Shown here: piece after piece, positions 21,329 to 23,933 of the stretch | How positions within the stretch are numbered: position 1 is the first letter of the stretch | How the letters are laid out: each line of letters begins with the position of its first letter | Source: an uncultured Clostridiaceae bacterium | GTDB taxonomy: Bacteria > Bacillota > Clostridia > TANB77 > CAG-465 | Assembly (NCBI GenBank): GCA_947381905.1 | Contig: CANCXL010000010.1 | Location: 1 to 60,967, forward strand | DNA length: 60,967 nt | Reading direction: 5' to 3' | Made by a program: the position numbers and the translations under genes | Notes under the pieces: model-generated | What the model was told of the DNA's origin: nothing | Database searches by the model: none | The model's input: only the letters and a program-made list of their open reading frames with translations

Positions 21329-21357
21329 ATATTAGCATATGACATAAAATTTGTCAA
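21329..21357 (-). promoter_or_regulatory. Promoter of the leader RNA / 33-aa ORF
   Basis: TTGACA (21352-21357) and TAATAT (21329-21334) are separated by 17 nt on the minus strand, directly after the terminator of the 66-aa gene. Confidence 0.75.
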
Positions 21358-21362
21358 TAAAA

Positions 21363-21386
21363 ACAAGGTAGATATTACTCTACCTT
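21363..21386 (-). terminator. Terminator after the 66-aa gene
   Basis: A 9-bp perfect stem (CAAGGTAGA and complement) and a 6-nt loop are followed by TTTTTATT on the minus strand. Confidence 0.85.
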
Positions 21387-21471
21387 GATGCATAGTATCA
21401 TATTTTCTTCTCTCCTATTTATGTATATAATCGAATGAATTATATAAAAGGGGGAAACCTTTATAAAATTG

Positions 21472-21672
21472 CTAAATGTCTAAAATGTATTTCAAATTAA
21501 GAACTCTGCCTTCAATTGCATATAGTAAAACAGCCTTTTCCTTATTTGATGTAGTTAAATTTCTTTTTTCTACTAAATGCACTAAAGCATATACATTTTG
21601 CTTAATTTTATGCAAATCTTCAACACTAATGCTTGCGACAGCGCTAGTATCAAAATTTATACGTTCACTCAT
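21472..21672 (-). CDS. Small protein of unknown function downstream of the tandem RNA repeats
   Basis: A 66-residue soluble, probably helical protein containing SISVEDLHKIKQNVYALVHL. A GTG lies three codons upstream, but AGGAGGTG at 5-6 nt selects the ATG at 21672. The nearest promoter is the third copy of the repeat promoter at 21802-21830; between promoter and gene lies a terminator hairpin (21741-21772), so expression would need read-through. A terminator follows the gene. No family recognised. Confidence 0.65.
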   Translation of the reverse strand: MSERINFDTSAVASISVEDLHKIKQNVYALVHLVEKRNLTTSNKEKAVLLYAIEGRVLNLKYILDI

Positions 21673-21740
21673 TTTAGTCACCTCCTAATTATATGATATA
21701 AGGAGATATGATACTAGCACTGGTTTAATATATACCAAAA

Positions 21741-21772
21741 AGGTATAATTACTCTTTTTAGTAATTATACCT
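21741..21772 (-). terminator. Terminator/attenuator before the 66-aa gene
   Basis: A 13-bp perfect stem (AGGTATAATTACT and complement) with a 6-nt loop, followed by TTTTTGG on the minus strand. Confidence 0.7.
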
Positions 21773-21833
21773 CAAAATTTAAGATAATATATTATACTAT
21801 TATTATACCACTTTTTACCTTGAAATACAAATT

Positions 21834-21905
21834 GGAGTAGATTTTCATCTACTCCATGAATAAACGTATAGTATATAGGTCTATAAAGTCGCAATCCCTA
21901 TATAC
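21834..21905 (-). ncRNA. Predicted small RNA, repeat unit B
   Basis: Transcribed from the promoter at 21912-21940 (TTGTGC-17-TATAAT). The RNA opens with hairpin 1, stem TATATAGG/CCTATATA and a 17-nt loop, and closes with hairpin 2, stem GGAGTAGAT/ATCTACTCC capped by a GAAA tetraloop (21834-21855). Only a weak U-run follows, so the 3' end is uncertain. No known RNA family recognised. Confidence 0.5.
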
Positions 21906-21943
21906 ACTTTTATTATACCACTTTTTATCTCAAAGCACAAATT

Positions 21944-22015
21944 GGAGTAGATTTTCATCTACTCCTTGAATAAACGTATAGTATATAGGTCTATAAAGTG
22001 GTAATCCCTATATAC
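21944..22015 (-). ncRNA. Predicted small RNA, repeat unit A
   Basis: Transcribed from the promoter at 22022-22050 (TTGCTC-17-TATAAT). Structure is the same as unit B; hairpin stems are identical and the first loop differs at two positions. Hairpin 2 lies at 21944-21965. Confidence 0.5.
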
Positions 22016-22076
22016 ATTTCTATTATACCACTTTTTGTTTTAAAGAGCAAATTTAAATAATATGTAAATATTAATA

Positions 22077-23739: not shown

Positions 23740-23768
23740 AGTTTATATAACAAAGAGAGGTGAATTTT

Positions 23769-23933
23769 ATGATGGATGAAAGATGCGGATGTGGTAACTG
23801 TGGAGGTTGCGGATGTGGATGCCAAAACAACTGTGGTTGCGGATGCGGAAATAACGGATTATTCGGTGGCGGAAACTGTTGCTGTATCTGGATAGTATTA
23901 ATTATAATTGTACTATGCTGTTGTTGTTGCTAA
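23769..23933 (+). CDS. Cys/Gly-rich small membrane protein
   Basis: A 54-residue protein. Residues 5-35 are a run of CG, GC and CGCG units with Asn and Gln, followed by a hydrophobic helix (IWIVLIIIVL) and a terminal run of five cysteines. Overall it has 19 cysteines. The layout, a small Cys/Gly-rich head with one membrane helix, recalls YjcZ-type and spore-coat-associated small proteins of Firmicutes, but no assignment is possible. A GAGAGGTG SD and a strong terminator frame it. Confidence 0.65.
   Translation: MMDERCGCGNCGGCGCGCQNNCGCGCGNNGLFGGGNCCCIWIVLIIIVLCCCCC

Follow-up and report, generated by a model that had tools for sequence, protein, structure and literature searches.

An array of 110-nt repeats in a 60,967-nt stretch of DNA from an uncultured Clostridiaceae bacterium (contig CANCXL010000010.1; the whole stretch is called the window here) is beyond chance, and its promoter-hairpin-terminator unit recurs at many sites in the genome. 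Together with the small open reading frames (ORFs) beside them, the units look like an undescribed family of RNA switches acting like toxin-antitoxin control. From sequence comparison, we consider it probable that they are hok/sok-like antisense modules, with orthogonal pairs of small RNA (sRNA) and target in paralogous loci, which control small soluble helical proteins. With rather less assurance, we lean toward treating them as a lineage-restricted class of modules, in which orthogonal 6-nt kissing pairs between tandem sRNAs and coding-sequence (CDS) hairpins are combined with a 3′ untranslated region (3′UTR) decoy switch of the ribosome site, serving soluble helical proteins.

The initial annotation had placed two units, 91% identical, and a third promoter copy at an exact 110-bp period between positions 21801 and 22054. 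Two repeat programs (TRF score 405) recovered two 110-nt units with 91% identity and exact 110-nt spacing, and a 33-nt promoter copy in step with both. The array is present at that span, but the feature continues as far as about 21356. Rather than a truncated unit, the third promoter is the putative promoter of a target gene and leads into a leader and a 66-amino-acid (aa) ORF, not into SL1, the 5′ hairpin of the units. Both sRNA units are read on the minus strand. Each has, as annotated, a −35/−10 pair with 17-nt spacing (TTGNNN-17 nt-TATAAT), to which we add an extended −10 (TGGTATAAT); the −35 hexamers (TTGCTC, TTGTGC, and TTGTAT) equal TTGACA at only three of six positions, so the array promoters are absent from the consensus scan list. 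SL1 lies about 7 nt past the promoter, at the likely 5′ end of the RNA, and consists of GUAUAUAGG, a 17-nt loop, and CCUAUAUAC; it is followed in each unit by a spacer and then by a second hairpin, which has a U-rich tail and was scored as terminator-like in a terminator scan. The two perfect stems per unit that had been described were reproduced in predicted folds, at 9 bp and 9-10 bp (−24.6 and −25.0 kcal/mol; z −5.8 and −5.3), and none of 200 shuffled sequences folded as well. In our judgment the array is real, and by its appearance it looks functional. Complementarity of the unit 1 loop to the −10 region (inverted repeats I12 and I13) was regarded as fortuitous, since the transcripts would not include the promoter. 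The strand, the target, the mRNA switch, and the gene of the third promoter are additions to the initial annotation. The two units consist of the following (evidence in brackets):

22022..22050, minus strand, sRNA unit 1 promoter, TTGCTC-17 nt-TATAAT with extended −10 (sequence; promoter repeated at all three 110-nt steps)
21981..22015, minus strand, sRNA unit 1 SL1, 5′-terminal hairpin (fold; covariance-model match G000:C10:21981-22027)
22003-21998, minus strand, unit 1 anti-target hexamer UACCAC (fits the ORF at the paralogous locus C43 and not the local one)
21944..21965, minus strand, unit 1 terminator hairpin (terminator scan)
21912..21940, minus strand, sRNA unit 2 promoter, TTGTGC-17 nt-TATAAT (repeat and promoter sequence)
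21871..21905, minus strand, sRNA unit 2 SL1 (fold; covariance model; complementarity)
21893-21888, minus strand, unit 2 anti-target hexamer UGCGAC (complements GUCGCA, the hexaloop of the local ORF, exactly)
21834..21855, minus strand, unit 2 terminator hairpin (terminator scan)

A search of the same genome with the array returned more copies, the best on contigs C43, C12, C14, and C8. Across the aligned family copies, the SL1 stem (99.2% of cells paired, with compensatory changes) and the −10 are conserved while the loop varies, the pattern first noticed in the array. A covariance model of the −10 and SL1, built from these same sequences, so that distant relatives could escape detection, identified 17 strong unit copies in this genome. 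The proposed multicopy sRNA family extends to related genomes, the homologue check having found further units in the genus: they occur at E≤0.01 in 9 of 27 other genus genomes and at E≤0.001 in six (G003, G004, G006, G012, G016, and G026). Seven genomes in an order sample of 191 carried units, all seven of this genus; the model found none in the genomes of that sample outside the genus. An exact pattern search of a genome collection returned only an uncultured Clostridia bacterium MAG (isolate Lapin-033, probably from rabbit, judging by its name), and the same pattern had no match in viral contigs. Rfam scans at gathering and relaxed thresholds gave no family (array matches E>0.6, below the cut-off), searches of phages, plasmids, and viral contigs gave no relatives, and the open-access literature, to which the search was limited, held no description of such a system.

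Pairing of the sRNA loop with a hexaloop in the ORF is strongly supported by complementarity at 12 loci (class A), nine in this genome (C10, which is the window, C43, C12, C14, C8a, C8b, C2, C25, and C18) and three in the relatives G003 and G012; the three hosts are related gut bacteria. A search for mRNAs complementary to the loop had been suggested, and the partner, not named at the time, is the small ORF of the same locus: the variable part of the SL1 loop complements its codons 11-14, and the longest contiguous matches (6-8 nt) always start at CDS offset 29-33. Permutation of the loop sets among the ORFs (200,000 trials) gave lower scores than the true assignment for both summed run length (87 versus 67.8 ± 3.5, p<5e-6) and pairing energy (−136.3 versus −98.8 ± 6.8, p<5e-6). 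The variable nucleotides, rightly suspected to form a targeting loop, are the exact complement of the linked hexaloop at a fixed register (loop nt 4-9, or nt 3-8 in 16-nt loops, or one base on; CDS offset 33 or 30). All 12 class-A ORFs own at least one linked unit with a perfect 6-nt complement, and perfect hexamers are found in 13 of 25 same-locus units versus 3 of 275 other-locus pairs, counts that permit two sRNA registers, include paralogous and hence not independent loci, and use a hexamer picked within the match for G003_C49, whose predicted loop has 4 nt, and for the two ORFs whose loops have 8 nt. The other-locus pairs are explained by window unit 1, which fits the C43 ORF, and by C8a and C2, which share one hexamer. 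Between diverged loci, the two partner hexamers change in concert, with little change in the SL1 stem and the constant part of the loop; by eye, neither that constant part (UUUAUAGA) nor the SL1 stem paired convincingly with the mRNA leader.

On the mRNA side, the class-A hexamer is the loop, or lies within the loop, of a predicted CDS hairpin with arm B as its 5′ side and arm D as its 3′ side (for example, GCUAGUAUU-ACCCCA-AAUACUAGC in C8b and ACUGCUAGUGUA-CGCCAU-UACAUUAGCAGU in C25). B:D pairing is locus-specific (−186 versus −110 ± 12, p<5e-6). Compared with synonymous recodings that keep the peptide, the hairpins are also stronger (mean z −3.5, 16 loci). As modeled, the B:D hexaloop opposite the SL1 loop is arranged as in a loop-loop kissing complex. 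The putative target gene in the window comprises the following:

21802..21830, minus strand, third copy of the promoter, TTGTAT-17 nt-TATAAT, which would serve the target mRNA (repeat; leader and ORF downstream)
21737..21773, minus strand, terminator-like leader hairpin and U tract in the 5′UTR of the target mRNA, between promoter and ORF (terminator scan)
21701..21722, minus strand, arm A with anti-Shine-Dalgarno (CAGUGCUAGUAUCAUAUCUCCU) (locus-specific complementarity to B and C)
21681..21686, minus strand, Shine-Dalgarno AGGAGG (sequence)
21472..21672, minus strand, target ORF, 66 aa from ATG (MSERINFDTSAVASIS...ILDI), predicted two-helix hairpin (complementarity; AlphaFold2)
21640..21651, minus strand, arm B, codons 8-11 (GAUACUAGCGCU), partner of A or D (complementarity; folds)
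21634..21639, minus strand, kissing hexamer GUCGCA, loop of the B:D hairpin (complementarity; hairpin analysis)
21618..21633, minus strand, arm D (AGCAUUAGUGUUGAAG), closing the target hairpin (z −3.2 versus synonymous recoding; cognate test p<5e-6)
21383..21419, minus strand, 3′UTR element C, mimic of the Shine-Dalgarno (AGGAG) and arm B (GAUACUA), partner of A (inverted repeat I2; folds)
21356..21387, minus strand, target mRNA terminator (terminator scan)

Arm A lies upstream of the Shine-Dalgarno sequence (SD) in each mRNA, often carries an anti-SD, and is complementary both to B and to element C, which is located in the 3′UTR before the terminator and resembles a copy of the SD plus B. Across 16 loci, each of the two pairings proved specific to its locus (A:B, −320 versus −201 ± 18, p<5e-6; A:C, −380 versus −264 ± 16, p<5e-6). 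Predicted folds of mRNAs ended after codon 20 or without the 3′UTR were compared with full-length folds. A:B, which in these models closes the ribosome site, is present in the shortened mRNAs of most loci, most clearly in C10, C8b, C18, and C22, and full-length folds contain A:C and B:D in C10, C43, C8a, C8b, C25, C18, and G012_C57. The predicted exchange of A:B for A:C plus B:D is clearest in C10 and C18; B:D is favored already in the shortened mRNA in C12, C14, C25, and C8c, and there is no clear predicted shift in C2, C22, and G003_C49 (3′UTR incomplete in the fold). Predicted SD accessibility of the full-length form is partial (0.41 in the window), with small changes and with some loci no higher than in the shortened form; since it is not raised at every locus, we infer, rather than read from the folds, that the full-length form with A:C is the translatable state. 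The terminator-like hairpin in the 5′UTR (leaders of similar form occur in C43, C12, C14, C8b, and C8c) could be an extra layer of control, through premature termination or as a 5′ protective stem. One ORF with the full switch, A, B, C, and D (locus C8c; L016, G000:C8, about 53.3-53.7 kb), lacks an sRNA unit beside it, and none was seen at other sites to fit its loop. A long conserved 3′UTR stretch (GATTCTAAGGCGCCCTAGAGATAATTCTTG...AGCTTAAGAGAAATCTTAAGCTATTT) lies behind C8a-type ORFs in two genomes (L012, L013, L052, and L083).

The target ORFs encode several protein families of 59-98 aa, with no convincing relatives in Pfam or PHROGs. The C10 family has nine matches among 385 order genomes, all in this genome; the C8a family occurs in this genome and G003 among 28 genus genomes, and the C22 family in this genome and G012 among 287 order genomes. 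The C10 protein was modeled as a two-helix hairpin (AlphaFold2, pLDDT 83), and a Foldseek search of this model against the PDB gave no match at E≤0.001 and only generic helical hairpins. None of the small proteins is strongly hydrophobic (maximum 19-residue hydropathy, 0.26-1.21).

Units with short loops (8-13 nt) form class B (G012:C69 [L067], G012:C50 [L077], C22 [L015], and C9 [L098]). One unit each of G012:C69 and G012:C50 has an 8-nt match at CDS +56/+57; the C22 and C9 units of this genome gave no clear match and no fixed register. Truncated ORF relics without a start adjoin sRNA arrays at G000:C43 (1479-1655, minus strand), G003:C28 (3419-3589, plus strand), and G012:C69 (128459-128575, minus strand), suggesting repeated gain and decay of modules. 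Unmatched units adjoin such relics, and those of G003:C28 fit the relic hexamer with one G-U pair (by eye); loss of the protein gene ahead of the RNA gene is the expectation if the RNA is protective. A solitary short-loop unit (GGUUGUUGUAGGCC) occupies the same place in two genomes (L059 and L070; G026:C40 and G016:C1), upstream of a T-box-like leader and a pheS-like gene and without a recognized small ORF, and may have another target. Another solitary unit lies near radA in G016.

In hok/sok of plasmid R1 and relatives, the loop of an antisense RNA recognizes a hairpin in a small-protein mRNA, mutually exclusive 5′ and 5′-3′ fold-back structures of this mRNA govern the ribosome site, and Sok is encoded opposite its own mRNA. 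The modules described here are likewise predicted to set an sRNA loop against an mRNA hairpin and to have alternative mRNA folds at the ribosome site. Unlike in hok/sok, the sRNA is encoded by a unit of its own on the same strand, often in tandem, without overlap with the ORF transcript; the target hairpin is in the CDS, not the leader; the protein is soluble; and the 3′UTR element mimics the SD and codon arm and is predicted to release the SD, not lock it. No Hok/Pfam or Rfam match and no cis-antisense overlap was found at the array. In AapA/IsoA of Helicobacter pylori, metastable hairpins, one within the ORF, sequester the SD during transcription, and the full-length AapA mRNA has a 5′-3′ long-distance interaction, with covariation as evidence, and is inert until activated by 3′ trimming, while IsoA is antisense to the toxin gene (PMC6733600). 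Our loci share a predicted SD-sequestering structure, a predicted 5′-3′ interaction, and support by covariation, but their sRNAs are separate promoter-terminator units. The antitoxin sRNA gene stands separately beside its target gene, as here, in tisB/istR-1 and zorO/orzO, whose toxins are small hydrophobic peptides; istR-1 pairs with the 5′UTR over 21 nt (PMC4147584, PMC3919570), unlike the 6-8-nt loop-loop pairing inside the CDS proposed here. The complementarity of ralA lies within the toxin coding region, and SymE, at 113 aa, is a larger protein of no marked hydrophobicity (PMC4147584), both points of likeness to our modules; the kissing hexamer and tandem units are not described for ralR/ralA or symE/symR, and the proteins are unrelated. 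Several sibling sRNA copies per genome are also known from LhrC of Listeria, where the copies have CU-rich motifs in common and their effects on one set of distant mRNAs add up (PMC6794450); here there is no common seed, and the loops diverge to fit different linked ORFs.

Judged by analogy, the module works like type I antisense control. Pairing of an RNA regulator with the mRNA of a linked small protein is indicated by complementarity and covariation, but a small hydrophobic toxin, usually a membrane protein and common in type I systems with exceptions such as SymE, is lacking, given the hydropathy values above and the two-helix hairpin; for this reason, and because toxicity of the small proteins would have to be presumed, we do not file the modules as type I toxin-antitoxin systems. 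Type III, where an RNase toxin follows tandem RNA repeats on a single transcript, was rejected, each unit having its own promoter-like site and terminator and the 66-aa protein having no Pfam match.

In the mechanism we propose, each unit would give a short RNA of about 75-80 nt, consisting of SL1 and the terminator hairpin. On the nascent mRNA, A would pair with codon arm B and hide the SD, probably preventing translation; once element C is transcribed, A would swap to C, freeing the SD and start codon, and B, released from A, would pair with D and expose the hexaloop within codons ~8-18. SL1 loop nt 4-9 would then kiss this 6-nt loop, and the bound sRNA would repress translation or trigger mRNA decay. 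We infer both the transcription of the units and the order of folding, A:B before A:C plus B:D, the latter by analogy with AapA3 (PMC6733600).

We favor repression quite clearly over activation, on which geometry alone is indecisive. The kissing site, at about +31 to +39, falls past the stretch that an initiating ribosome normally covers, and repression from there would have to work through RNase cleavage or a roadblock. Because B:D and A:B use one and the same arm and the kissing site is the B:D loop, binding should favor B:D over the SD-sequestering A:B; the sRNA could then be an activator, freeing the SD, with protein made only in its presence. We hold this to be unlikely, as the full-length mRNA of most loci is predicted to reach A:C plus B:D without sRNA, and solitary units and decayed ORFs better suit a protective RNA.

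Repression of the linked ORF also has to be set against readings in which that ORF is not the special partner. If the units were LhrC-like trans-acting regulators of many genes, the linked ORF being one target among several, the solitary units away from recognized small ORFs (L059, L070, and radA in G016) and the match of window unit 1 to the ORF of another locus would find an easy explanation, but the exact fit of linked unit to linked ORF in 12 of 12 class-A loci would be needless, and we consider this improbable. The complementarity might instead be a functionless by-product of ancestry, with units derived from inverted copies of ORF starts and whole loci duplicated later. The loci are indeed paralogous and rearranged, with relics, but the match ends at the 6-8-nt loop without including the flanks, and covariation of the hexamers contrasts with the near constancy of the SL1 stem and constant loop part; on these grounds we consider such an origin very improbable. 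A local duplication without function, named at the outset as the refuting case, would account for two near-identical tandem units, but scarcely for the family-wide recurrence, conserved structure, and covarying targets, and is the least credible of all.

The loci provide a dozen natural, diverged, and largely orthogonal predicted sRNA-mRNA kissing pairs, distributed over three genomes, whose recognition code can be read (loop nt 4-9 versus CDS hexaloop). This series makes testable how pairs diverge without cross-talk and how CDS, start-site structure, and 3′UTR coevolve. Should the proteins prove toxic, the modules would add a type I-like family whose proteins are soluble; otherwise they would offer a new means of controlling small proteins.

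Elsewhere in the window, a small ORF on the plus strand (23760-23933) has an extreme Cys and Gly content and a hydrophobic C-terminal stretch (MNFMMDERCGCGNCGGCGCGC...LCCCCC).
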